Below are positions 409 to 22,375 of a DNA stretch of 64,000 bases, in pieces. The stretch spans positions 114,576-178,575 of the forward strand of contig JAFDVO010000018.1 of NCBI GenBank assembly GCA_018268955.1, read 5' to 3'. Position numbers and translations under genes: made by a program. The notes under the pieces are model-generated. The model saw only the letters and a program-made list of their open reading frames with translations, was not told where the DNA came from and made no database searches. This stretch comes from Acidobacteriota bacterium (GTDB lineage: Bacteria; Acidobacteriota; Vicinamibacteria; Vicinamibacterales; CAVVIG01). Each line of letters opens with the position of its first letter. Position 1 is the first letter of the stretch.

Positions 409-1284
409 TCAGGCGGCTGCCGCTTCAGGTCCGCTCTTGGCGGCGCGGCAGAGTTTCTCGGTCTCGTCGAAGCTCGGGCGGACTTCGGACGGCAGCACGC
501 GGCGGGCAAACTCAATGGCGATCGCGGGCGGCAGCCCCTTGTAGACCGCCATGATGCCGGCCCGCATGCACTCTTCGTACTTCCCGTCGGCCGCCACGCG
601 CGCCTCCATGGCGCCGGCGAGCGGCTGGATGAACCCGTAGGACATCAGGATGCCGAGGAAGGTGCCGACGAGCGCCGCGCCCACGTGCTCACCGATTTCC
701 GAGGGCGGCCCGTCGATGGCGCCCATCGTGATGACGATGCCGAGCACGGCGGCCACGATGCCGAGGCCAGGCATCGCGTCGCCGACCTTCGTCAGCATCG
801 CCGCGGGCTTGCCCTCCACGTCGTGGTGGACCTTCAGGTCCTCCTCCATCAGCGCGTCGAGGTCGTGCGCGTTGATCCCGCCGACGATGATCACTTTCAT
901 GGAGTCGGCGAGGAAGTCCAGTGAGTGGTGCCGGCCCAGGAACTTCGCATGCTTCCCGAAGATCGCGCTCTCAGCCGGCTTCTCGAGGTGCGACTCGATC
1001 GACATCACGCCGCCCTGCTGGATCTGGCGGAACAGCTTGTAGAGCATCACCAGCAGATCAGCGAAGTCGTCCTTCGTGAGCCCGGTGCCGAGGAGGCCGC
1101 CCAGCTGGCCGCCCAGCGCCTTCAGCACCGTCGGCGTGGTGGCGATCAGCATGCTGCCGACCGCCGCGCCGCCGATGATGATCAGTTCCGCGGGCTGGAT
1201 GAGGACGAGAAGGTTGCCGCCCTCGAAGAGGTACCCTCCGAGCACGGACAGAATGACGACGACGGCGCCGACGATGACGAGCAT
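409..1284 (-). CDS. motA: Flagellar stator protein MotA
   Basis: Inner-membrane stator subunit that with MotB turns ion flow into torque. 291 residues, the usual length of E. coli-type MotA. Two N-terminal membrane spans (about 1-20 and 32-50), a large cytoplasmic loop (about 70-165) and two further spans (about 168-190 and 200-222) give the four-helix MotA/ExbB fold; the GLGIVAAVLGIV helix is the typical third span. The ATG directly abuts the stop codon of the upstream HD-domain gene (TAGATG), implying coupled translation, and motB follows. A second, divergent MotA lies at 15524-16321. Confidence 0.95.
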   Translation of the reverse strand: MLVIVGAVVVILSVLGGYLFEGGNLLVLIQPAELIIIGGAAVGSMLIATTPTVLKALGGQLGGLLGTGLTKDDFADLLVMLYKLFRQIQQGGVMSIESHLEKPAESAIFGKHAKFLGRHHSLDFLADSMKVIIVGGINAHDLDALMEEDLKVHHDVEGKPAAMLTKVGDAMPGLGIVAAVLGIVITMGAIDGPPSEIGEHVGAALVGTFLGILMSYGFIQPLAGAMEARVAADGKYEECMRAGIMAVYKGLPPAIAIEFARRVLPSEVRPSFDETEKLCRAAKSGPEAAAA

Positions 1285-1947
1285 CTAGGATCCCTGCGCC
1301 GCAGATCTCGGCGCGTCGAGGGCACGCAGACAGGCAGCCACGACCGCCGGGTCGAACCGCGAGCCCGAGTTACGGAGGAGTTCGGCCGGCACCGCATCCT
1401 GCGCGACACCGAGCGAGGCACAGACCGACGAGAGGGCGTCGAAGGTATCCGCAACGTGCAAGACCCTGGCGCCAAGAGGAATCTCGCCGCCGCGAAGGCC
1501 GCGGGGATATCCCGAGCCGTCGAGGCACTCACGCGAGGCGCGGACGAGCGCCGCCGCTGGCAGGAGCGCCGGCACGGTCTCGATCACCTGCACGGCGATG
1601 TCGACCTGGCGTGACCAGCGGGCGGTGGAGACTTCGATGGCGTGATGGTCAGGGTCGCCGGACACGACGTCGATGTCCGGTGCAATGAACCGGCCGAGGT
1701 CGTGCAGCCAGGCCGCACGCTCGAGGTGCTCGAGATCGCGTGGCGTGAACCGGAGTTCCTGGCCGATGCTCGTGGAAACCGCGGCGACGCGCTGTGCGTG
1801 GCCGAGGGCGTCGGGTGTGTGCCGGTAGAGTGCCGACATCACCGCGATGAGGGTGGCCGTCGAGGCGATGGCGTTCTCGGCGAACGTCATTTCGACCCGT
1901 GTCCGGCGTTCTGTCCACTCGTAATCTGCAGGTATCGGAGGCCGCAT
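1285..1947 (-). CDS. Degenerate HD-GYP domain protein
   Basis: 220 residues dominated by an HD-GYP-like domain, the family that hydrolyses cyclic di-GMP. Visible are H50, the H82-D83 pair (WLHDLGRF), the GYP loop at 146-148 inside CLDGSGYPRGLRGGEIPLGAR and the following VADTFDAL helix. The conserved HHE triad normally just before the GYP loop is replaced by S138-R139-E140, so metal binding and catalysis are doubtful; it may be a binding or signalling relic. The stop codon abuts the motA start, so it is likely co-expressed with the stators and might adjust motor output. ATG at 1947 follows a GGGGGA stretch; ATG 1890 is an alternative start. Confidence 0.8.
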   Translation of the reverse strand: MRPPIPADYEWTERRTRVEMTFAENAIASTATLIAVMSALYRHTPDALGHAQRVAAVSTSIGQELRFTPRDLEHLERAAWLHDLGRFIAPDIDVVSGDPDHHAIEVSTARWSRQVDIAVQVIETVPALLPAAALVRASRECLDGSGYPRGLRGGEIPLGARVLHVADTFDALSSVCASLGVAQDAVPAELLRNSGSRFDPAVVAACLRALDAPRSAAQGS

Positions 1948-2003: not shown

Positions 2004-2594
2004 TCAGTCGCGCGTGGCGTGCTCGAGCAGGCTCCGGTGCAACCCGGCCAGCACTCCGCGCCAGGCATCGAGCGTTTCCACCAGCTCGCCGTCGAGCAGG
2101 TCGGCCAGCGTGACCCAGTCCCCGTCGTCACGCGCGCCAACCATGCGGTCGACATGCGCGCTGACGTCGCTCAGGCTGCCCGTGTCGAGCCCCGTCACGG
2201 CGGTGATGACGCCGGTCAGTTCGACGAGCGTCGCCAGATTGCGCGCGAAGGGCGCCAGCTCACGGATGCCGCGATCGATGTCGTACTGCCGGAACGCCGA
2301 CGCCAGATCGTGCGCCGCGCTCCTGAGTGGGTCGACCGCTCGCAGGGCCTCGCCGACAGCGGAGAGGATGAGGTCCGCCTGCCTCGCCGTGTCCACATTG
2401 ATCTGGAGCCGCTCGACGTGGTGCAGCGCCAGGTCAGGATCCCGGAACGACGGCTGGGCGACACCATCGAACGCCACATCGGTCACGACCACGCCCTGAC
2501 CGGCACACTCATGGTCGAGCAATGCCAGCAGTTCTCCCCAATTCTGCACGGCACGGACCGGTGTTGCCTCGATGCCGTTGACGACCACCTTCAT
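2004..2594 (-). CDS. Unknown soluble protein, first gene of the motAB operon
   Basis: 196 residues I do not recognise. There is no signal peptide or membrane span. The first ~65 residues look beta-rich; the rest is probably alpha-helical, with many leucines and alanines and an acidic DDGDWVTLADLLDGELVETL segment. ATG at 2594 follows AAGGA at good spacing, and a sigma-54 promoter match sits about 17 bases further upstream, so start and promoter support each other. Position at the head of the HD-GYP/motA/motB operon suggests a motility role, but nothing in the sequence shows which. Confidence 0.75.
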   Translation of the reverse strand: MKVVVNGIEATPVRAVQNWGELLALLDHECAGQGVVVTDVAFDGVAQPSFRDPDLALHHVERLQINVDTARQADLILSAVGEALRAVDPLRSAAHDLASAFRQYDIDRGIRELAPFARNLATLVELTGVITAVTGLDTGSLSDVSAHVDRMVGARDDGDWVTLADLLDGELVETLDAWRGVLAGLHRSLLEHATRD

Positions 2595-7862: not shown

Positions 7863-9899
7863 TCACGCCACCGCGTAGGCGGCACGTCGGGCGGTCGCGT
7901 GCCCCGAGCCAGGACGCAGCACGTCCCCGTTCACGGTCACGCCGACGATGGGTCCTGCCGTCACCGCGGCCGCGACCGCATGCACCTGGTCGTAATTCGC
8001 CCCGGTGGCGTTGTGGTACGGCACGACGACGGCGGCGAACTCGTGCTGCTCGATGAGGCGCCCGGTCGTCGGCGCCATGGCGCTGACGTCGAAGTTGAAC
8101 GATTCGCTGAACGGGTGGATCTGCTCTGCCGTGAAGTCGCTCTGGAACGACGGCACGAAGCGGTCGTGCGTCAGGACGTGCGGCTCGTAGCCGAGCGATG
8201 CCAGCGAGTGCAGCACGACCCGCGTGAGGCCCGGCCGCGCAGACTGCGTGACGAGTACCTTGGTCGGCCGGCCTGATGTCACCGAGGGCAACGCGGCGCT
8301 CAGGCGCGCCTCGAACTCAGGCGTCCGCAGGCGTCGGAGGGCCTGCTCTTCCCAGAAGCGCGAGTAGGCTTCCTTCACCGCATGCTCGAGCTGCTCGGCG
8401 GTGAAGTTCGCCGTGCGGGCCACGGCGCGGTGCGAGCCGAGGTACTCCTCCCAGTTCTCGTTGAGGAGCCAGCCGTTCTTCTTGTAGAGCCGGTACATCT
8501 CCGTCCCTGGATAGGGCGTGGTGATCGAGAACTGCACCGTGTCCACCGGCAGGCGGCACGCCAGCTGGATGGTGCGCTCGATGGTCTCGGGCGTATCGCT
8601 CGGCAAACCGAACGTGAACGTCAGGTGCACCTTGATGCCGAACTTCTTCGTCATCTCGACGCCTTTGATCACGTCGTCGATCTTGATGTTCTTCTTGATC
8701 TCGTTCAGCAGGTTCTGGTCTGCCGTCTCGACGCCGTACTTGATGCTGAACAGACCTGCGTCCTTGAGGGCCGCGAGCATCTCCTCGTCCATCAGGTCCG
8801 CACGGCCCATCGTGCCCCAGGGGATCGTGTGCAGCCCGGCATCCTTGATCGCCTTGGCGAGATCCAGGATGTACTGCTTCCGGATGTTCACCGTGTCGTC
8901 GTCGATGTAGAAGCTCTTGTACGGAACCTTCTCCAGGTTGGCCTTGATCTCGGCGACGACATCCTGGACGGTGCGGACGCGGTACTTGGGTCCGCGATAG
9001 ATCATCTGCGGCCAGCCGCAGAAGATGCAGCCATACGGGCAGCCGCGGGTCGCCATCAGCTGGAGCTGCGGCCGTTCGAGGCCGCACACGCCGTCGTAGT
9101 AGTTCTCCATGGGCAGCCCATCGCGTTCGGCCCACGGCAACTGCTCCATCGGCACGAGCTTCTTGAAGTCGTTCCTGACGACCGGCGCGCTTGCCACCGC
9201 GTCATCCTTCTTGAGGAGACGAAGCGTCTTCGGCGCCGACTGGTCCTCGGCGCTGGAGGATCCGCAGCCACCACCCTCGCTCGCGTGCGCGTGGCTCTCC
9301 TCTACCGATGCGTCGATCGCCGCCTTCACCGCGGTCCCGTTGGCGCGATAGATCAGCCCTTCGATGCCCGCGAAGTCGTGCTCGCCGCGATCGAGACGGT
9401 CGATAACCTGCACGGTCGAGAACTCGTACTCGCCGTAGACGGTGAAGTCCACCTGCGGGTAGCGTTCGAGGAACGAGGCCTCTTCGAGCTCGAAGTGCAT
9501 GCCGCTGAAGATCACCGTCACGTCCGGCACCCGCCTGCGGATCTCCTCGACCACGCCGATGTCATGGCGGAGAGTTGGCGTGGACGTCTCGATCACCACC
9601 ACCTGCGGCGCGAACGCCTGCACGTGGTCGTAGTAGTGCTCGTAGGTCTCACCGGACGCGACCGAGTCGCGCATCTCGGTCTCGTGGCCGTGCTTCTTCG
9701 CGAGGGCCGCCGCCGTGGCGAGGAACACCGGGAACGGGATGTAGCCACCCACGAGTTCCGGGATGTGGCCGTTCACGGGACCGGCCGACCGGTACTCGAA
9801 CTGGTGCGGCCACCGCGATCCCGCGCGCACGCCGCGCAGGCTCGTACGATCAGGACCTTCCGACGTGTACCACGGTGGATTCGAGAACAACACGCGCAT
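7863..9899 (-). CDS. B12-binding-type radical SAM protein
   Basis: 678 residues. A cobalamin-binding-like N-terminal domain (about 40-190) is followed by a radical SAM core with the CxxxCxxC cluster in TRGCPYGCIFCGW, which ligates the 4Fe-4S cluster that cleaves S-adenosylmethionine. FYIDDDTVNIRK and IKYGVETADQNLLNEIKK are typical core segments. A Ser/Gly-rich linker with one isolated Cys sits near 210-230, and ~130 C-terminal residues form an extra alpha/beta domain. Such enzymes often methylate or rearrange sugars or lipids; substrate unknown. ATG 9899 follows GGAGA; TTG 9905 is the alternative. The position among sugar genes suggests nonstandard sugar modification. Confidence 0.85.
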   Translation of the reverse strand: MRVLFSNPPWYTSEGPDRTSLRGVRAGSRWPHQFEYRSAGPVNGHIPELVGGYIPFPVFLATAAALAKKHGHETEMRDSVASGETYEHYYDHVQAFAPQVVVIETSTPTLRHDIGVVEEIRRRVPDVTVIFSGMHFELEEASFLERYPQVDFTVYGEYEFSTVQVIDRLDRGEHDFAGIEGLIYRANGTAVKAAIDASVEESHAHASEGGGCGSSSAEDQSAPKTLRLLKKDDAVASAPVVRNDFKKLVPMEQLPWAERDGLPMENYYDGVCGLERPQLQLMATRGCPYGCIFCGWPQMIYRGPKYRVRTVQDVVAEIKANLEKVPYKSFYIDDDTVNIRKQYILDLAKAIKDAGLHTIPWGTMGRADLMDEEMLAALKDAGLFSIKYGVETADQNLLNEIKKNIKIDDVIKGVEMTKKFGIKVHLTFTFGLPSDTPETIERTIQLACRLPVDTVQFSITTPYPGTEMYRLYKKNGWLLNENWEEYLGSHRAVARTANFTAEQLEHAVKEAYSRFWEEQALRRLRTPEFEARLSAALPSVTSGRPTKVLVTQSARPGLTRVVLHSLASLGYEPHVLTHDRFVPSFQSDFTAEQIHPFSESFNFDVSAMAPTTGRLIEQHEFAAVVVPYHNATGANYDQVHAVAAAVTAGPIVGVTVNGDVLRPGSGHATARRAAYAVA

Positions 9900-13674: not shown

Positions 13675-14829
13675 CTACACCGCACGCGCGAGTGGATGCC
13701 CGCCGGCAGCCACGACCGCGTCGGCAGAGTCCCGCTGCCCGCTCTGCAACGCCTCCGGGCAGGGCGCGAAGTCGGGTACTGCCGCGATGAGCGCCGCGAG
13801 CGACGCCGGGCTGTCCGCCCGAGCCAGCGCTCGTCGCAGGGCGCGGAGGGCGGTGTCGACCCGTCGACCATCGACGTCGGGCTGCCGGGCGACCCAGATG
13901 CGCGGGTGCCTGGTTGCCGTCATCGAGATCCCCTGTTCGACGAGGCGCTCCTGCCGCTTCTCACCGGGACGCAGTCCGATGACCTGCGTGGGCACGCGCG
14001 CGAACCCGTTTTCCGCCTCGAGCCCGAGCATGCGCTCGACGAGATCGCCGATGCGGATCGGCTCGCCCATGTCGAGCCAGTACGTCTCTCCCCCCTGCCC
14101 GGCCAGATCCACCTTCATCACGAGTGACACCGCCTCACCCGCTGTCATGAAGTACCTCGTCGCATCAGGATCGGTGACCGGCACCGGCTGCCCAGCCCGA
14201 ATGCAGTCGCGGAGAATGGTGAGCAGGCTGCCGCTGCTGCCGAGGACGTTCCCGAACCGTACGACGGCCGGGCGGAAGGTTACCGACGCCTCGCGCAGCA
14301 CGACGAGCTCCGCCAGCCGCTTCGTGGCGCCCATGACACTCGTCGGAGCGGCTGCCTTATCCGACGAAATCAGGATGAAGCGTGCACCGCACTCACGGGC
14401 CGCCGTCACCACGTGGACCGTTCCGAGCACGTTGGCGTTCGAGGCGGCACAGACCGCTCGCTCGGACATGGTGACGTGCTTGTACGCGGCGGCGTGATAG
14501 ACGACGTGCGGACGTGAGTGACGGAATGCCTGACGGACGAACGCCGACCGCGTGACATCGGCAAGAACGGGGTCCAGCACCCGGTCCGGGAGCATCGGGG
14601 CGATCTCCCGTTCGATCTGGAAGAGCGCGTGTTCCGAGTGGTCGACGAGCGTCAGCCGTTCCGGGCCGCAGGCGGCCACCTGCCGGGCCAGCTCGGACCC
14701 GATGGATCCGCCGGCTCCGGTGATCAGCACGCGCCGCCCTGCGAAGGCCCGACGGTCCTGGGGGGACAGGACCTGCCGCACCGGCCGTCCGAGCAGGTGG
14801 GCGAGCTCGCGTTCCGTAAACGTGGTCAC
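13675..14829 (-). CDS. CapD/WbpM-type UDP-HexNAc 4,6-dehydratase, soluble form
   Basis: 384 residues of the polysaccharide-biosynthesis CapD family, which makes 4-keto-6-deoxy UDP-HexNAc. RVLITGAGGSIGSEL binds NAD, VYHAAAYKHV is the family signature and SSDKAAAPTSVMGATK carries the active-site segment. That segment has Met rather than Tyr four residues before the Lys, as in WbpM-type dehydratases rather than PseB. The N-terminal membrane domain of WbpM is absent. Start GTG 14829 overlaps the upstream motB-like stop (GTGA) after AAAGGA; the longer in-frame extension overlaps that gene and is rejected. It probably opens the nonulosonate-sugar route. Confidence 0.85.
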   Translation of the reverse strand: MTTFTERELAHLLGRPVRQVLSPQDRRAFAGRRVLITGAGGSIGSELARQVAACGPERLTLVDHSEHALFQIEREIAPMLPDRVLDPVLADVTRSAFVRQAFRHSRPHVVYHAAAYKHVTMSERAVCAASNANVLGTVHVVTAARECGARFILISSDKAAAPTSVMGATKRLAELVVLREASVTFRPAVVRFGNVLGSSGSLLTILRDCIRAGQPVPVTDPDATRYFMTAGEAVSLVMKVDLAGQGGETYWLDMGEPIRIGDLVERMLGLEAENGFARVPTQVIGLRPGEKRQERLVEQGISMTATRHPRIWVARQPDVDGRRVDTALRALRRALARADSPASLAALIAAVPDFAPCPEALQSGQRDSADAVVAAGGHPLARAV

Positions 14830-15527
14830 GACTGCGGTCCTTTCAGAATCACGACATCGACGCGGCGATTCCTGGCGCGCGCCTGCGCCGACTCGTTGGC
14901 GACGCGCGGTCGATACTCGCCGTACCCGGCGGCCGACAGACGCGCGGGCTCGATTCCGCCTCGCTCCACGAGCCACTGCACCACCGCCGTTGCGCGGGCG
15001 GTCGACAGCTCCCAGTTCGAGGCGAACCGTGGGGTATGAATCGGCACGTCGTCCGTGTGCCCTTCGATCAGGACGGAATTGCCCATTTTCGCGAGTGACG
15101 CGGCCAGCCTCGCGACCGCCTGCTGCGCGGTGTCCGACAGATCGGCGCTGCCGGTTCCGAACGCACTCGCTTCGGGGATCGACAGCACCAGGCCTCGGCC
15201 GTCCTCGAGCAGCTCCATGCGGCCGCTGCGCAGGTCCTCCGCCATGTCCTTTTCGAGGATCACGCGCGCGTTCAGCTGCTCCTGGCTGAGCATCGCAGTA
15301 CCGCTCGACGCGGGAATCCGGCCAGGCGCGTTCGGCAACGCATCGGGTGAGTCGAGCGCCTGATGCAGTCCCATCGCCACTTTCGAGAGCTTGGCCTGGT
15401 CCACCGTGGAGATCGCGTACATCGTCGTGAAGAAGGCGAAGAGCAGCGTGATGAAATCCGCGTACGAGAGCAGCCAGCGGTCTCGCGACACCCCGTGACC
15501 GCTGTTGCGACGGTGCCGCGGTCTCAT
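14826..15527 (-). CDS. Second MotB-type stator protein
   Basis: 233 residues: one membrane span (about 19-42) with the channel aspartate D24 in SYADFITLLFAFF, a periplasmic linker, and a complete OmpA-like peptidoglycan-binding domain (about 110-228) with SVLIEGHTDDVPIHTP and STARATAVVQWLV. It pairs with the MotA-like protein at 15524-16321 (ATGA overlap). Motif spacing is MotB rather than TolR. Unusually it sits between the cytidylyltransferase/MotA side and the dehydratase of the sugar operon, and overlaps the dehydratase start by 3 bases. It may form an alternative stator set (MotD-like). Confidence 0.9.
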   Translation of the reverse strand: MRPRHRRNSGHGVSRDRWLLSYADFITLLFAFFTTMYAISTVDQAKLSKVAMGLHQALDSPDALPNAPGRIPASSGTAMLSQEQLNARVILEKDMAEDLRSGRMELLEDGRGLVLSIPEASAFGTGSADLSDTAQQAVARLAASLAKMGNSVLIEGHTDDVPIHTPRFASNWELSTARATAVVQWLVERGGIEPARLSAAGYGEYRPRVANESAQARARNRRVDVVILKGPQS

Positions 15528-16321
15528 GCCGCCACCCTGCCCCGCTGCAGTTCCCGGCGCGCGCGGAGGAAGGCGCTCAGGTGCTGCTCGACCAGGCGGG
15601 GATGCGTGTTCAGCTGGATGGCCGAGATCGCCTCGATGACCACTTCGCGGCTCACGGCTTCAGCCCGGGCCCTGGCGCGGACCTTCGTGGCCAGCGGCAG
15701 CAGGAGCAGGTTCGCCGAGCCGACGCCGTACACCGTCGCGACGAAGGCGACGGCGATGCCCGCCCCGAGCCGGCCGGGACTCGCCAGGTTCTCCATCACG
15801 TGAATGAGACCGAGCACCGCCCCGAGGATGCCCAGTGTGGGGGCGTAGCCCGCTGCCGCCTCGAGCACGTCGGCCGGCTCCTCATCATGCAGCTCGCGGG
15901 TCTCGCTGTCGGTCTCGAGCAGGCGCCGGACCTCGGGTCCGCGAAATCCATCCACCACCAGTTCCAGCGCGCGCTTCAGAAAGGGATCGTGCAGCACGTC
16001 GATCTCTGCCTCCAGCGCACCCACCCCCTGCCGTCGCGCACGGCTCGCGTACTCCGTCAACCGTTTCACCAGCTGCTCGTCCGGCTCGGCTGGCGCATCG
16101 AACGCGCGAAGGGCGGCGCGAACCGCCCCACCCACAGCACCAACCGGGTACGACACGAGGAGCGCCGCGAACGTGCCGCCGAACACCACCAGCGCGGCGG
16201 TGGGCTGCAGCAACGTCCGAATCGCGCCACCCTCGAGCAACTGCGCGCCGAGGACCACCGCCACGGTGAGAGGCACACCAATCACCGAGGCGATGTCCCG
16301 CCGGCGCGGGGCGGACTTCAT
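15524..16321 (-). CDS. Second MotA-type stator protein
   Basis: 265 residues of the MotA/TolQ/ExbB family: spans at about 9-28 and 35-55, a cytoplasmic domain of ~110 residues, then APTLGILGAVLGLIHVME and GIAVAFVATVYGVGSANLLLLPLATK as spans three and four. It is shorter and clearly different from the MotA at 409-1284, so the cell has two stator systems (MotC/MotD-like). ATG 16321 overlaps the cytidylyltransferase stop (ATGA) and has GAGGGG upstream, so stator translation is coupled to sugar-activating enzyme translation. Confidence 0.9.
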   Translation of the reverse strand: MKSAPRRRDIASVIGVPLTVAVVLGAQLLEGGAIRTLLQPTAALVVFGGTFAALLVSYPVGAVGGAVRAALRAFDAPAEPDEQLVKRLTEYASRARRQGVGALEAEIDVLHDPFLKRALELVVDGFRGPEVRRLLETDSETRELHDEEPADVLEAAAGYAPTLGILGAVLGLIHVMENLASPGRLGAGIAVAFVATVYGVGSANLLLLPLATKVRARARAEAVSREVVIEAISAIQLNTHPRLVEQHLSAFLRARRELQRGRVAA

Positions 16322-17034
16322 CTCATGCCCCTCTTCGTCGTCCCGCCGTTCGCCACCCACGTCAGCCGATCGGCGACGTCGATGAAGGCGGACAGCGGCG
16401 CCGGGAACGTGTCCGGTCCGATCGCCTCGAGGAGCTTCTGCATGAACGCGAGGTCCTCATCGGTGTCCACGGTCAGGCGCAGACCCGGCCGGCGCAGGTG
16501 GCCCGGCGCCAGCGCCGCCAGCGCGAAGAAGTCATGCGAGCTCCGCAGGAACGGCGTGACGTGCTCGCGGTCGTACGGGTCGGTGGCCGCCGCTGCCGCC
16601 TTCAGCAGCGCGTCGCCGCGTACCGCTTCCACGGCCGCGCCGTACGGGAGCCCGTGCTCGACCACGTGGTCGGCGCCGGTGCGGTCCAGGAGGATCAACG
16701 TGCGGGCAACCGCATCGGTGTCGACCGCCGGGTTGTCAGCCGTCGCCCGTATGACCCGGTGCAGCTCGAAGTACCGCGTGGCCTGTGCGTACCGATCGAG
16801 CACGTCGAGCTCGGAGCCCCGGAAGGTGTGCGCCCCGAGCGCTTCGGCGGTCGCGACCAGGCAGTCGTCCTCGGGTTTGGTTGTCGTCGTGAGGACGACG
16901 GGATATCCGCTCGCCTGGAGCCGGACGATGGCGTGCGCCACCAGGGTGTGGCCGCCGAGTACGCGCATCGACTTTCCGGGCAACCGGCTCGACCCCATGC
17001 GCGCCTGCAGCAGAATGGCGGTGCCGCGCATCAT
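16318..17034 (-). CDS. SpsF/NeuA-type cytidylyltransferase
   Basis: 238 residues of the acylneuraminate cytidylyltransferase-like family (SpsF branch). AILLQARMGSSRLPGKSM is the nucleotide-binding signature, HTFRGSELDVLDRY follows and RATADNPAVDTD holds the metal-binding acidic residues. It probably couples CMP to the nonulosonic acid made by the NeuB/PseI enzyme, the PseF/LegF step; SpsF-type proteins are more distant from NeuA, so donor sugar and nucleotide are inferred from the neighbours. ATG 17034 overlaps the ATP-grasp stop (ATGA). Confidence 0.83.
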   Translation of the reverse strand: MMRGTAILLQARMGSSRLPGKSMRVLGGHTLVAHAIVRLQASGYPVVLTTTTKPEDDCLVATAEALGAHTFRGSELDVLDRYAQATRYFELHRVIRATADNPAVDTDAVARTLILLDRTGADHVVEHGLPYGAAVEAVRGDALLKAAAAATDPYDREHVTPFLRSSHDFFALAALAPGHLRRPGLRLTVDTDEDLAFMQKLLEAIGPDTFPAPLSAFIDVADRLTWVANGGTTKRGMR

Positions 17035-18044
17035 GCCACCCCCCGCTCGGCCTGTGCGTCTGCGCCCAGCGGTTCGAGCCGCACGCGCGACGCGTCGAGG
17101 AAGACGGACGCCTCGTAGTTGGTCATCCAGAGCTGGTCACGGAACCGGCCGATCGAGGGCGCCACACGGCGCCCGGCATGAAGCTGCAGCAGCATGGCTG
17201 GGAAATCGGCGCCCGCCTCGATGGTGAGCGGGATGCCGCCTGAGAACCTCGGGTTGATTTCGAAGACAGTGGGCCGCCCCTCGTGCACGCGGCACTGGAT
17301 GTTGAGAGGACCGGCGAACCGAAGGGCGGAGACGCAGGCCCGCGCCAGATCGATCAGCGCGGCGTCGTTCACGGTGCGGCCACGATCGATCACCCCTGCG
17401 CGGACGACGACGCGCTCGCGGGGCACGATCGACAACGGCCGCCCGGCGAAGTCGCACAGCACGTCGATTGTGAACTCCGGCCCATCCAGGTAGCGCTGGA
17501 CGATCGGCGCCTCGACGTAGTCGCGGAAGAAGGCCAGCTCGCGAGGCGTGCGGACCGTGACGGCGCCCACGCCGCCGCGTCCGGATCGCGGCTTGATGAA
17601 GAGCGGCAGTTCGATGTCGGCTGGCAGGTCCTCGGGAAGGAACGACTCGACCGCCGACACCCCGCGCTCGCGGAGCACGCGACAGGTCTCGTACTTGTCG
17701 TTGCAGAGCGTCGTGGTGACCTCGGGCGAGACGACCACGCGCACGCCCCGTTCCGCGAAGCGCGGCACAGCCGCGCTGAAGATCGGCAGTTCATCGTCGA
17801 TTGTGGGAATGAGCATGCCGATGCGCTCCGCCTCGCAGATCGCCAGCACCTCGTCGAGGTATCCGGCGTCGGAGGTCAGCGGCACGCGGTACGCGCGGTG
17901 CCCCGCGTAGACCGCCGGCGACAGCGCATTCACATCAGTGACGATCACCTGTCCACCGCCCCAGCGCGCCTGCGCGGCCCTGAAGGCATTGACCAGTGGG
18001 ACGCGGCGCGACGCCGCCGTCACGAGCACGTTGATCGGCTTCAT
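17031..18044 (-). CDS. ATP-grasp family ligase
   Basis: 337 residues of the carbamoyl-phosphate-synthase-like ATP-grasp family, which joins a carboxylate to an amine or similar nucleophile through an acyl phosphate. INVLVTAASRRVPLVNAF starts the N-terminal domain, LPLFIKPRSGRGGVGAVTV is the ATP-binding glycine loop, and FEINPRFSGGIPLTIEAGADFP carries the Mg-binding Glu-x-Asn. Such genes recur in nonulosonic-acid loci, where they may add an amino-acid or acyl group; substrate unknown. ATG 18044 overlaps the NeuB-type stop (ATGA). The longer frame upstream overlaps that gene and is not credible. Confidence 0.82.
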   Translation of the reverse strand: MKPINVLVTAASRRVPLVNAFRAAQARWGGGQVIVTDVNALSPAVYAGHRAYRVPLTSDAGYLDEVLAICEAERIGMLIPTIDDELPIFSAAVPRFAERGVRVVVSPEVTTTLCNDKYETCRVLRERGVSAVESFLPEDLPADIELPLFIKPRSGRGGVGAVTVRTPRELAFFRDYVEAPIVQRYLDGPEFTIDVLCDFAGRPLSIVPRERVVVRAGVIDRGRTVNDAALIDLARACVSALRFAGPLNIQCRVHEGRPTVFEINPRFSGGIPLTIEAGADFPAMLLQLHAGRRVAPSIGRFRDQLWMTNYEASVFLDASRVRLEPLGADAQAERGVA

Positions 18045-19111
18045 GCGATCCGCCTTTCCATCGTCGACTCGAGATCCTCGTACCGCAGTGCCGTGCCGGC
18101 CGGGAGGTCGGTCGACAGCCGCCGGCCGACGACATCGCCGATGCGATTGGCGGGGATGCCGCTGCCGGGACGCAGCGCCACGAGGTCGGCGGCCGACAGC
18201 ACCGCTCCGCGTTCGAGGGGTACTCGCGCATACAACGCGCGGCGGCTGGGGATCACGTTTGGCGCCTCGGCCGCCTCGCACCGCTTCTCGCCCGTTCCCA
18301 GCGCCGCGGCCGCACGGGCGGCGGCATCAACCAGCGCGGTGAACTGCGCGGGGGTGCTCGACACCGGCGCGTCAATGGCGTCGTGATCGCCGTCGAGCAT
18401 GAAGTGCCGTTCGTAGAGCGACGCGCCGAGCGCCACGGCGATGGGCAGCGCGAACCCGTCCGGACCATGATCGGACAGGCCTACGGGCGTATCGAATGCG
18501 CGCGCAAGCGTGTCGATGGCACGGAGGTTCTCCGAGCCTGCCGGTGTCGGGTAGGCCGAGACGCAGTGCAGGAGCGCGATCTGCGTGGCGCCGGCAAGGC
18601 GCGCGGTGGCCAGCGCGTGTGACACCTCGGCGAGCGTGGCCATGCCGGTGGAGATGATCATCGGCTTGCCGGTGCGAGCGACCCGAGTGATGAGCGCGTC
18701 CCACGTCACGTCGCCGCTGGCGATCTTGAACGCGTCGACCCCGACACGCTCGAGCAGGTCGACGCTGTCGAGCGAGAACGGTGTCGAGACGAAGGCGAGC
18801 CCGTGCGCGCGGGCTCGCGCCGCCACCGCGCGATGCGCGGCTTCGTCCAGCTCGAAGGTCGAGAAGAACTCGGTGAGCGACGCCGCCTCGACGTGCGCCG
18901 GCGCGGGGCACGCGGCGGCGACCAGCGACGTGGCCTGCAGGGTCTGCAGCTTCACGGCTGCGGCGCCCGACGCGGCCGCGGCGTCCACCATGGCGAGGGC
19001 GCGGTCCAGCGAGCCGCTGTGATTGAGGCCGATCTCCGCAATCGTGAAGAGGGGACGGCCCGCGCCCGCCTCACGGCCGGCGATACGGATCCACGCGTCA
19101 TTACGCCGCAT
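18041..19111 (-). CDS. NeuB/PseI-family nonulosonic acid synthase
   Basis: 356 residues. Condenses a 6-deoxy- or N-acetyl-hexosamine with phosphoenolpyruvate to a nine-carbon sialic-type acid. The N-terminal TIM barrel shows FTIAEIGLNHSGSLDRAL, AVKLQTLQATSL, FVSTPFSLDSVDLL, FKIASGD and ISTGMATLAEV, all family hallmarks; the HCVSAYPTP strand and YERHFMLD follow. The C-terminal SAF (antifreeze-like) domain at about 285-350 includes ARVPLERGAVLSAADL and PGSGIPAN. Together with the PseG-like gene this favours a pseudaminic-type product, but NeuB, PseI and LegI cannot be separated by eye. The ATG overlaps the HAD stop by 11 bases. Confidence 0.9.
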   Translation of the reverse strand: MRRNDAWIRIAGREAGAGRPLFTIAEIGLNHSGSLDRALAMVDAAAASGAAAVKLQTLQATSLVAAACPAPAHVEAASLTEFFSTFELDEAAHRAVAARARAHGLAFVSTPFSLDSVDLLERVGVDAFKIASGDVTWDALITRVARTGKPMIISTGMATLAEVSHALATARLAGATQIALLHCVSAYPTPAGSENLRAIDTLARAFDTPVGLSDHGPDGFALPIAVALGASLYERHFMLDGDHDAIDAPVSSTPAQFTALVDAAARAAAALGTGEKRCEAAEAPNVIPSRRALYARVPLERGAVLSAADLVALRPGSGIPANRIGDVVGRRLSTDLPAGTALRYEDLESTMERRIA

Positions 19112-19802
19112 ACTCGGTCAGCCTTTCAGGAAGGATGCACCCGGCAATCACAGGCACATCGGACATGCGCGAGACCACGGCGTCCGCGCAGAGGGACACC
19201 ACGCCGAAGGGTCCACGCCGCCATTCACGGGTCTGGATCGTGCGCAGACCGCAGCGCGCCGCTCCGAAGATGTCGCTGAACTCGTCATCGCCCACAGCAA
19301 TCGCACGCGCGGGCTCGACCGCGAGCGCCTCGAGCGCCGCCAGGAACGGTTCGCGCTCAGGCTTCCCTTCGCCAGTCCCGTGCTCGCTGGCATAGACGAC
19401 GGTGTCGACGAGGGGCTCGACGCCCAACGCCTCCACCTTCGCCCGCTGAATCGCGGGAATGCCGTTCGTCACGATCGCCAGCTTCCAGGAGCGGCCGAGC
19501 GTCCGCAGCGTGGCGGCCGTCGGGCCGGGCAGCTGCAGTGTGGGGGTGTGCCGCCGGATGACCCGCACGAGGGTCGCGACAGGCACGTCAAGCCCGAGCC
19601 GCTCGGTCAGCACGTTCAGTTCGCGCCCCCGGGTGGGGCCGCTCGCCGCGCCGAGCAGGATCCGGTAGGCGCGTGCTTCGTCCACGCCGTGGTGCGCCGC
19701 CACGTGGCGCGCCACGGCCGCGAACCCGCTGAGCCTGAAGTGCCGAAGCGGGTACAGGGTGTCGTCCAGATCGAACAGGATGGCGCGATCGTTACGCAGC
19801 AT
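19101..19802 (-). CDS. HAD-family phosphatase
   Basis: 233 residues. D11-x-D13-x-T15 in ILFDLDDTLYPL is the catalytic aspartate motif, followed by a helical cap, LAIVTNGIPAIQRAKV (motif II), the Lys of KPEREPFLAAL (motif III) and AVGDDEFSDIFGA (motif IV). It probably removes phosphate from a sugar intermediate, for example the 9-phosphate of a sialic-type acid as NanP does, but the NeuB/PseI class used here usually makes an unphosphorylated acid, so the substrate is open. ATG 19802 overlaps the PseG-like stop by 11 bases. Confidence 0.82.
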   Translation of the reverse strand: MLRNDRAILFDLDDTLYPLRHFRLSGFAAVARHVAAHHGVDEARAYRILLGAASGPTRGRELNVLTERLGLDVPVATLVRVIRRHTPTLQLPGPTAATLRTLGRSWKLAIVTNGIPAIQRAKVEALGVEPLVDTVVYASEHGTGEGKPEREPFLAALEALAVEPARAIAVGDDEFSDIFGAARCGLRTIQTREWRRGPFGVVSLCADAVVSRMSDVPVIAGCILPERLTEYAA

Positions 19803-20766
19803 GGGATTCGTCCTCGGCCCGACGGGCCAGTTGGCGGATCGCGTCGGCCACGCGGAACACCCCACGGCCGTCGACCAGGTGTGCAGCGGTTGCGCCCAAT
19901 CGCGCGGCACGGACCGGATGCTCGAGCAGATCGGCGACTGCGTCCGCCGCGTGGGCGAACGCCGCCGGGTCGGAGAAGATGCCGGCGTCGACGGCCGCAC
20001 CCCGACGGGCGAAGCCACGGATGGTCGGCTGCTGCGCGGAGACCACGGCGACACCGACCGCCGGCGTGGCGAGCGCCGCCGCTTCGTAGAGCGTGACGCC
20101 GCCGCCGACCACCGCGACCGCGGCCGCAGCGAGTTCCCCGGCAAGACCATCAGGGGCTGACACCCACGTGATGCGCGGATCGGCACTGGTCCGGGCCTCG
20201 CGACTGAAGCCCTGCGCGATCCGAATGGTGGCGTCAGGTCGGCGGCTGCGAATGGCGCGCGCCAGCATCTCGCCCCACTGGTGCACATGGTCGCCGCCCC
20301 CGAGCGCCAGCAGCACCGCGCGGCGTTCTCCGAGTGGCTGTGTCCGCATCTGCGCAACAGCTGGATCGAGGACGGCGTAGAGCGGGCCTGCCAGGGTGAA
20401 GGGTTCACGGCGGTCGCCCTGCTCGATGCTGCCGTCGATGGCGAGGTCCGATTCGACGAATCCCAGTCCGAGGTCGTGCAGGGTCGCCACCGGGATGCGG
20501 GTCGCCCGCGCGCGCTCGACCCAGCGCGCGGCTTCAGCCTCGAGAGGGTCGTCGACGACCAGCACTCGCGGGCGGTTCGCGCGCAGGATGCCCAGGCCGC
20601 CCCGTTCGACCTGGAACCCACGGGCGGTCGCCGTCGCCACGGCTGTGCGGTCGCCACGGATGCAGACCGTGGGGGTGACGCCCAGTGCCCGCGCGATCGA
20701 GCGTGCGCGCATCAGGTGCCCGAATCCGAGGCGAGGCCCTGCCGCGACGCGGAAGAGCACGCGCAT
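19792..20766 (-). CDS. PseG-like UDP-sugar hydrolase
   Basis: 324 residues. PseG removes UDP from 2,4-diacetamido-2,4,6-trideoxy-altrose to supply the sugar for PseI. Visible: VAAGPRLGFGHLMRARSIA, in which H17 matches the catalytic histidine of PseG; RPRVLVVDDP; VLLALGGGDH at the domain boundary; and the GT-B-type donor motif VVGGGVTLYEAAAL. ATG 20766 has GGAGGG 7 bases upstream and overlaps the NHL gene's stop by one base (TGATG). An upstream in-frame codon at 20781 is less likely. Confidence 0.87.
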   Translation of the reverse strand: MRVLFRVAAGPRLGFGHLMRARSIARALGVTPTVCIRGDRTAVATATARGFQVERGGLGILRANRPRVLVVDDPLEAEAARWVERARATRIPVATLHDLGLGFVESDLAIDGSIEQGDRREPFTLAGPLYAVLDPAVAQMRTQPLGERRAVLLALGGGDHVHQWGEMLARAIRSRRPDATIRIAQGFSREARTSADPRITWVSAPDGLAGELAAAAVAVVGGGVTLYEAAALATPAVGVAVVSAQQPTIRGFARRGAAVDAGIFSDPAAFAHAADAVADLLEHPVRAARLGATAAHLVDGRGVFRVADAIRQLARRAEDESHAA

Positions 20767-21380
20767 CAGCACACCCTCCACACGCGATGCGGGTCGCGAT
20801 GGGCCTGTCGTTCGTGCCGATCGTCGGTGCGCCCCGTGGTTGCCAGGAGAGCCGCCGCGACATGCAGCCGGATCGTGCGGCCGTCGAGCGTGGTCACGTC
20901 AAGCGTGGGTCCACGCCAGGTGAGATGACACGGGGGCTGGTCCGGGTCCAGTTCGGACTCCCCTATCCAGACGCCGTCGGATTCGAAGTACTGCACGCGG
21001 TGGTTCCCGTAATCGGCGACGGCGAGCCACGGCGCCAGCAACGCCTGTGCATCCGCGCGCACGATCGGTTCACCGCTGAACTCGGGATGCATCGGTACCA
21101 CCGCGATGGGCGTGTCGAACTGCCCGCACCGGTGGCCGTACTCGCCAAACGCGAACGCGATGCGGCCATCGCCGTAGCGGGCCACGACGCGGTGGGCGGC
21201 AGGATCGACCTCGTACGTGAGTTGCGAGGTTGACGGCTGGACGACACCCGTCGCTCGGCTGGCCGTCACCTGATCGGTGCCCGGCGCCGGGGAGGATGCG
21301 CCAGATGAGGGGCGTTCCTCACGGTTTTCAGGCGCGAAACCGTGGGGGTGTCGTGGGTCTGCGGGTCGGATGGTCGCCAT
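20766..21380 (-). CDS. NHL-repeat-like protein, first gene of the glycosylation operon
   Basis: 204 residues. The middle holds one or two NHL/beta-propeller-like units: FAFGEYGHRCGQFDTPIAV and LAVADYGNHRVQYFESDG are the typical GxxGxxxGQFxxP and VADxxNHRVQ motifs. There is no signal peptide or membrane span. The C-terminal half (TWRGPTLDVTTLDGRTIRL) resembles a short beta domain. Too small for a whole propeller, so it may oligomerise or be a remnant. ATG 21380 is placed 16 bases after the predicted start of a sigma-54 promoter. Function in glycosylation unknown; transcribed divergently from fliC. Confidence 0.68.
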   Translation of the reverse strand: MATIRPADPRHPHGFAPENREERPSSGASSPAPGTDQVTASRATGVVQPSTSQLTYEVDPAAHRVVARYGDGRIAFAFGEYGHRCGQFDTPIAVVPMHPEFSGEPIVRADAQALLAPWLAVADYGNHRVQYFESDGVWIGESELDPDQPPCHLTWRGPTLDVTTLDGRTIRLHVAAALLATTGRTDDRHERQAHRDPHRVWRVC

Positions 21381-21406: not shown

Positions 21407-21422
21407 GGCGAGAACGCTGCCA
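21407..21422 (-). promoter_or_regulatory. Sigma-54 promoter candidate for the glycosylation operon
   Basis: Minus strand TGGCAG-CGTTC-TCGCC with exact GG-N10-GC spacing. It shares TGGCAG-N5-TCGC with the fliD promoter at 22461-22476. The predicted start near 21396 lies 16 bases before ATG 21380, giving a short leader with AGG. Confidence 0.62.
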
Positions 21423-21463: not shown

Positions 21464-21490
21464 TAAAGCTTCCAGACCCGTTCCCGATTA
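21464..21490 (+). promoter_or_regulatory. Sigma-28 (FliA) promoter of fliC
   Basis: TAAAGCTT-N11-CCCGATTA matches the enteric sigma-28 consensus TAAAGTTT-N11-GCCGATAA at 13 of 16 positions with exact spacing. Transcription would start near 21497, giving a leader of about 70 bases before the flagellin ATG. FliA is encoded at 37466-38203 and its anti-sigma factor FlgM at 29280-29576. Confidence 0.85.
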
Positions 21491-21568: not shown

Positions 21569-22375
21569 ATGGCTTCGTTCTCAGTCGTCTCCAACATCTC
21601 CGCCGCCAACGCCCAGTCGAACCTGATTGGCACCAACATGAACATGCAGAAGGCCATCGCTCGCCTGTCGAGCGGCTTCCGCATCAATCAGTCGGGCGAT
21701 GACGCCGCGGGCCTGGCCCTCGCGAACAGCTACCGCAACACGCAGGCGGTGCTGAACCAGGGCATCCGGAACGCCAACGACGGTCTGTCCACGCTGCAGA
21801 TCAAGGACGGTGCGCTTTCCAACATCAGCACCCTGCTCGATCGTCTCTCCACCCTCGCGACGCAGTCCGCGAACGCGGCCTCGAGCGTCGACCGCACCGC
21901 CCTGAACAACGAGTTCACGGACGTCCTCGGTGAAATCGACCGCGAGGCGAGCGTCGGCGGGCTGACCGCATCGGCCGGCTTCTCGGTCTACGTGAGCAAC
22001 GACGGTGCGAACGGCTGGGTGCACGGCACGATCGGCGCCGCGAACACGACCGCCCTCGGCCTGACCGGCGGCTCGTTCAACGTGAGCAGCGCGGCCAACG
22101 CGGCGAGCGCCCTCAGCACGATCTCCACCGCGGTCGGCACGCTGGGGTCCACGTCGGCAACCATCGGCACCCTGCAGAACCGCCTGACGTTCGCCGTCGG
22201 CCTCGCGCAGTCGCAGGTCGTCTCGAACAAGGCCGCTGAATCCCGCATCCGCGACGCGAACGTCGCAGAGGAATCGGCAAACCTGACCCGCTACAGCATC
22301 CTGACGCAGTCGGGCATCTCGGCCCTCGCGCAGGCGAACCAGCAGAGCTCCGCGGTCCTGAAGCTCCTCGGCTGA
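21569..22375 (+). CDS. fliC: Flagellin
   Basis: Filament subunit, 268 residues, near the short end for flagellins. The N-terminal D0/D1 helices (NLIGTNMNMQKAIARLSSGF, ADDAAGLA-type segment, LSTLQIKDGALSNISTLLDRL) and the C-terminal D1/D0 helices (TLQNRLTFAV, SRIRDANVAEESANLTR, ending in LKLLG) are complete. Only ~70 residues (about 125-195) remain for the exposed domain, rich in Ser/Thr/Asn/Gly and a plausible target for the Maf glycosyltransferase. Driven by a sigma-28 promoter; the leader carries a CsrA-type hairpin. A strong hairpin follows the stop. fliD is next on the same strand. Confidence 0.97.
   Translation: MASFSVVSNISAANAQSNLIGTNMNMQKAIARLSSGFRINQSGDDAAGLALANSYRNTQAVLNQGIRNANDGLSTLQIKDGALSNISTLLDRLSTLATQSANAASSVDRTALNNEFTDVLGEIDREASVGGLTASAGFSVYVSNDGANGWVHGTIGAANTTALGLTGGSFNVSSAANAASALSTISTAVGTLGSTSATIGTLQNRLTFAVGLAQSQVVSNKAAESRIRDANVAEESANLTRYSILTQSGISALAQANQQSSAVLKLLG

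Follow-up and report, generated by a model that had tools for sequence, protein, structure and literature searches.

A flagellar stator pair within a conserved nonulosonic-acid-type sugar operon beside fliC in Acidobacteriota

Why should the two genes of a flagellar stator stand inside a run of genes for sugar synthesis? The question is raised by a 64-kb stretch of DNA from an acidobacterium of the order Vicinamibacterales (hereafter ‘the window’, i.e. the whole 64,000 nucleotides analysed), where motA2 and motB2 lie within a nine-gene run on the minus strand, divergent from the flagellin gene fliC. A second motA gene is found further along the window. The features that matter here are the following, from fliC outward.

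21569..22375, plus strand: flagellin gene fliC, divergent from the operon (PF00669/PF00700)
21464..21490, plus strand: sigma-28-type promoter of fliC, TAAA-N15-CCCGATTA, conserved in relatives
21407..21422, minus strand: candidate sigma-54 promoter of the operon, TGGCAGCGTTCTCGCC (score 22/28), ending about 27 nt before the ATG at 21380
20766..21380, minus strand: first ORF of the operon, no assigned function, ATG at 21380
19792..20766, minus strand: PseG/SpsG-like sugar-nucleotide hydrolase (TIGR03590, E 3.8e-16, below the equivalog cut-off)
19101..19802, minus strand: HAD-family phosphatase (PF00702)
18041..19111, minus strand: NeuB/SpsE-type nonulosonate synthase (PF03102 and SAF; TIGR03569 285 bits, below the equivalog cut-off)
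17031..18044, minus strand: PylC-like ATP-grasp protein (PF15632, PF21360)
16318..17034, minus strand: SpsF-like cytidylyltransferase, CTP_transf_3 (PF02348, 81 bits)
15524..16321, minus strand: MotA2, TGI4/MotC-type stator A subunit (NF006583, 254 bits)
14826..15527, minus strand: MotB2, MotD-type stator B subunit (PF13677, PF00691; NF006541; PDB relatives)
13675..14829, minus strand: PseB/CapD-like NAD-dependent sugar dehydratase (PF02719, 285 bits)
409..1284, minus strand: MotA1, E. coli-type (TGI5) stator A subunit (TIGR03818, 342 bits, above the cut-off)

Genes overlap at all junctions of the operon, by 1 to 11 nt. The first ORF shares 1 nt with the gene that follows, the HAD gene overlaps both its neighbours by 11 nt, and the last five junctions overlap by exactly 4 nt, namely NeuB/ATP-grasp, ATP-grasp/SpsF, SpsF/MotA (ATGA), MotA/MotB (ATGA) and MotB/PseB (GTGA). 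The preliminary description, which placed the stator pair between a cytidylyltransferase and a dehydratase and joined it to both by ATGA/GTGA overlaps, is thus borne out in coordinates, gene identities and overlap lengths. Its names ‘CMP-sugar’ cytidylyltransferase and ‘UDP-HexNAc dehydratase’ hold at the level of the families (PF02348 and PF02719) and go beyond it in specificity, the dehydratase, an SDR protein, scoring 117 bits where the PseB equivalog model asks for 408. The first ORF gave no match in a Pfam search and is partly conserved, with 30–45% identity to ORFs at the equivalent place in relatives.

The product of the pathway can be named only as a nonulosonate-type sugar, since the window's enzymes all score below the curated cut-offs of the PseB, PseG and PseI equivalog models. 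No aminotransferase is encoded in the window's operon, and homologues occur at other places in the same genome; in two relatives (loci L062 and L120) a DegT aminotransferase sits within the operon, which there comprises a full PseB–PseC–PseG–NeuB-like set. The sugar is probably supplied for flagellin, a target suggested by gene position. Glycan genes also lie between the two stator pairs, among them one for a B12-binding radical SAM protein (7863–9899, minus strand).

Both subunits encoded in the operon resemble flagellar stator proteins. MotA2 scores 254 bits against NF006583, above the curated cut-off of 237, and when aligned to PDB chains it keeps Pro161, Pro209 and the loop charges, its closest PDB relatives being flagellar stators. 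MotB2 carries Asp24 and has MotB_plug (PF13677) and peptidoglycan-binding OmpA (PF00691) domains above the Pfam cut-offs; its best match is NF006541 (MotD) with 204 bits, short of the equivalog cut-off of 283. In the same alignment to PDB chains, the position of PomA Thr158 is Ala in MotA2 and Thr in sodium-type relatives, a difference taken as a marker of ion type, from which the pair is predicted to be proton-driven.

An E. coli-type pair lies about 14 kb beyond the sugar-operon pair, motB1 coming after motA1 and running off the window; the class names follow PMC12505986, with TGI4 (MotA2) and TGI5 (MotA1) assigned here from family scores. MotA1 is present in 32 of the 35 Vicinamibacterales genomes that bear MotA2 (the remaining three are 77–93% complete). 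It was not found in any of the six genomes searched in family f35 of the phylum, each of which has one MotA2 as the sole stator found. The suggestion that the sugar-operon pair is an alternative stator is not supported; since MotA2 is the sole stator found in f35 and MotA1, of E. coli type, comes in addition to it in the order, the pair in the operon is most readily seen as the lineage's older, core stator. Directly upstream of motA1 stands a gene for an HD_5 (HD-GYP-like) protein (1285–1947, minus strand), a vicinity that suggests a tie between c-di-GMP and the stator of E. coli type. Both genes are preceded by a conserved ORF without a Pfam match (2004–2594, minus strand), with a sigma-54-like element beside it (2637–2622); a relative of this ORF opens the sugar/motA2B2 operon in related genomes.

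How far the arrangement is conserved was surveyed in 162 Vicinamibacterales genomes, of which 35 contain MotA2; a search of genome contigs with MotA2 places its nearest relatives in this order and in other Acidobacteria. A strong cytidylyltransferase match lies directly upstream of motA2 on the same strand in 31 of the 35, an adjacency maintained at about 47–62% MotA identity. The order found in relatives is PseG–HAD–NeuB–ATP-grasp–SpsF–motA2–motB2 opposite fliC, often with the dehydratase next; further afield in the phylum, families f15 and f35 have NeuB–ATP-grasp–..–SpsF–flbD–motA–motB. The linkage of pair and cassette is therefore kept across the order and in two further families, and an isolated rearrangement or an assembly artefact is ruled out by its retention in many independent assemblies. 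At 58 related motA loci from outside the Acidobacteria (45 of them with at least 5 kb upstream), no sugar-gene match was found. The same operon occurs on a contig labelled Ilumatobacteraceae (Actinomycetota; locus L019), probably through a binning error. On the downstream side, the window's genes for a TPR-methyltransferase, RfbD and a cupin protein were unmatched in the fetched loci of relatives, so that within these loci the conserved block stops at the dehydratase.

Two of the four exceptions (G342 and G343) have contigs that end just past flbD. In genome G143 the cassette is present and SpsF is followed at once by the dehydratase; flbD–motA2–motB2 lies on another contig of this genome (loci L106 and L105). 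In G387 (L108), motA2 is directly opposite fliC without a close NeuB or sugar cassette; this assembly has 6% estimated contamination and is nested among linked relatives, and cassette loss or an assembly problem is possible. Family f17 likewise has flbD–motA–motB opposite fliC and lacks the NeuB cassette. The linkage of the pair to the cassette can thus break, as in G143 and G387, and neither module strictly needs the other to adjoin it, since G143 has the cassette without the adjacent pair, and G387 and f17 the pair without the cassette.

The overlap itself appears to be derived. In other lineages the SpsF–motA gap is roughly 220–300 nt and contains flbD (PF06289), a small flagellar gene that the window genome lacks, as do those sampled genomes where SpsF and motA touch. 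Among 17 distinct flbD-less loci (the window and 16 relatives), the SpsF/MotA overlap is exactly 4 nt in 13, with spacings of −1 to +1 nt in the other four; where the dehydratase directly follows motB (16 such loci), all 16 offer a start that gives an overlap of −4 or −8 nt. On a MotA+MotB tree (a quick search with several open forks and one long branch) a single change accounts for the loss of flbD among linked loci, while the linked versus unlinked state needs six, and the linkage in f15/f35 and that in Vicinamibacterales may go back to one ancestral event or to two. We infer that flbD first stood between the cytidylyltransferase gene and motA. Early in the phylum's history, an flbD–motA–motB module near fliC would have joined with the sugar cassette in a single gene run; a later single loss of flbD would have brought the motA start over the cytidylyltransferase stop.

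Transcription would start in the intergenic region shared with fliC. The window's candidate sigma-54 element is weak (P 0.11 per 140 nt, not significant alone). In 10 of 15 relatives the opening gene of the operon is preceded by an element scoring at least 24/28, as compared with 1.6% for random windows of 140 nt; the counts in relatives are not independent owing to shared ancestry. Such elements also occur upstream of fliD, well over background. The sigma-28-like site of fliC widely outscores every other position of the window, in a profile that includes the site itself, and is conserved. A sigma-28 promoter for the sugar/stator operon was considered and rejected, the profile built from fliC promoters giving no convincing site there. 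Genes for rpoN, fliA and an NtrC-type activator are present in the genome.

From gene order, overlaps, conservation and the position of the cassette beside fliC, the best explanation, which we hold to be likely, is that the run forms a late flagellar operon, conserved in Acidobacteriota, in which the core stator would be co-expressed with nonulosonic-acid-type enzymes. The operon would be transcribed from the putative sigma-54-type promoter beside fliC, and fliC from its sigma-28-type one. Translational coupling at the 4-nt overlaps would hold the stator and the enzymes of sugar synthesis to low, matching amounts and time both to filament growth. The dehydratase, hydrolase, NeuB-type synthase and cytidylyltransferase together would make the filament sugar. 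Most likely, as far as gene arrangement can tell, the organization keeps two late flagellar functions on together.

The same features can be read otherwise. Both modules might simply have lain near fliC in an old flagellar supercluster until flbD loss fused them, leaving a coupling that is unselected. The pair does adjoin fliC even where the cassette is absent, 4-nt overlaps are frequent in bacteria, especially in compact operons, and the loss of flbD is one event on the tree; however, the adjacency has lasted through the MotA divergence noted above while the genes just downstream turn over, and neutral persistence seems unlikely to us. Slightly less credit is given to a specific dependency, in which the stator would be adjusted to the glycosylated filament or checked against it, for example by being produced only if sugar synthesis has succeeded, and coupling would act as quality control beyond co-expression. 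Exact overlaps retained despite large divergence, and the placing of the pair amid the genes of the pathway, where the dehydratase follows it, speak for such a dependency; the pairs beside fliC without a NeuB cassette (f17, G387) and the cassette without an adjoining pair (G143) speak against it, and contact between stators and filament sugars is not known. Motor and sugar might conceivably interact directly. A checkpoint form of the dependency, which would limit stator translation to ribosomes completing the sugar enzyme, power motors only if filament glycosylation is possible and make the dehydratase stator-gated, is more doubtful still. Mirror-tree distances gave a MotA2–NeuB correlation no better than that of MotA2–FliC, so that no special co-evolution was seen.

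Agl/Exb-type motors elsewhere drive non-flagellar processes, and the pair could power something else, such as glycan export. Glycan genes all around the pair and the other roles that exist among ExbB/MotA relatives would agree with this. It is nevertheless very improbable, given a MotA2 above the flagellar equivalog cut-off with flagellar stators as nearest PDB relatives, the flbD–motA–motB context by fliC and the status of MotA2 as the sole MotA found in f35.

Compared with known systems, the components are familiar. The pair is closest to the Pseudomonas MotCD/TGI4 stators (NF006583, NF006541), MotA2 exceeding the family cut-off and MotB2 being nearest MotD. P. aeruginosa, which has dual stators (PMC11005332), resembles the window genome in having a second pair of another type (here E. 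coli-type) alongside the MotCD-type one; it differs in that the window's pair stands in a sugar operon by fliC and its MotB2 falls below the MotD equivalog cut-off. Elsewhere in the order and the phylum flbD directly precedes motA, whereas in the window's lineage flbD is missing and motA overlaps the cytidylyltransferase stop codon. Clusters for flagellin nonulosonates make pseudaminic or legionaminic acid in Campylobacter and Aeromonas, with spsEFG as the counterpart in Bacillus. The window's operon shares with them a dehydratase, a PseG-like protein, a NeuB-type synthase and a cytidylyltransferase (with an aminotransferase in its relatives); unlike theirs, its enzymes score below the Pse equivalog cut-offs. 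To our knowledge, motAB does not occur within these clusters. No description of this arrangement was found in the open-access literature; as far as that search reaches, the components are known and the arrangement is undescribed.

In this soil and sediment lineage of Acidobacteria, torque generation and filament-sugar synthesis, flagellar functions mostly encoded separately, are thus held in a conserved genomic tie. Natural experiments are provided by lineages in which flbD separates the genes, the pair has moved elsewhere or the cassette is absent, and the arrangement offers a testable case for selection, or none, on translational coupling.
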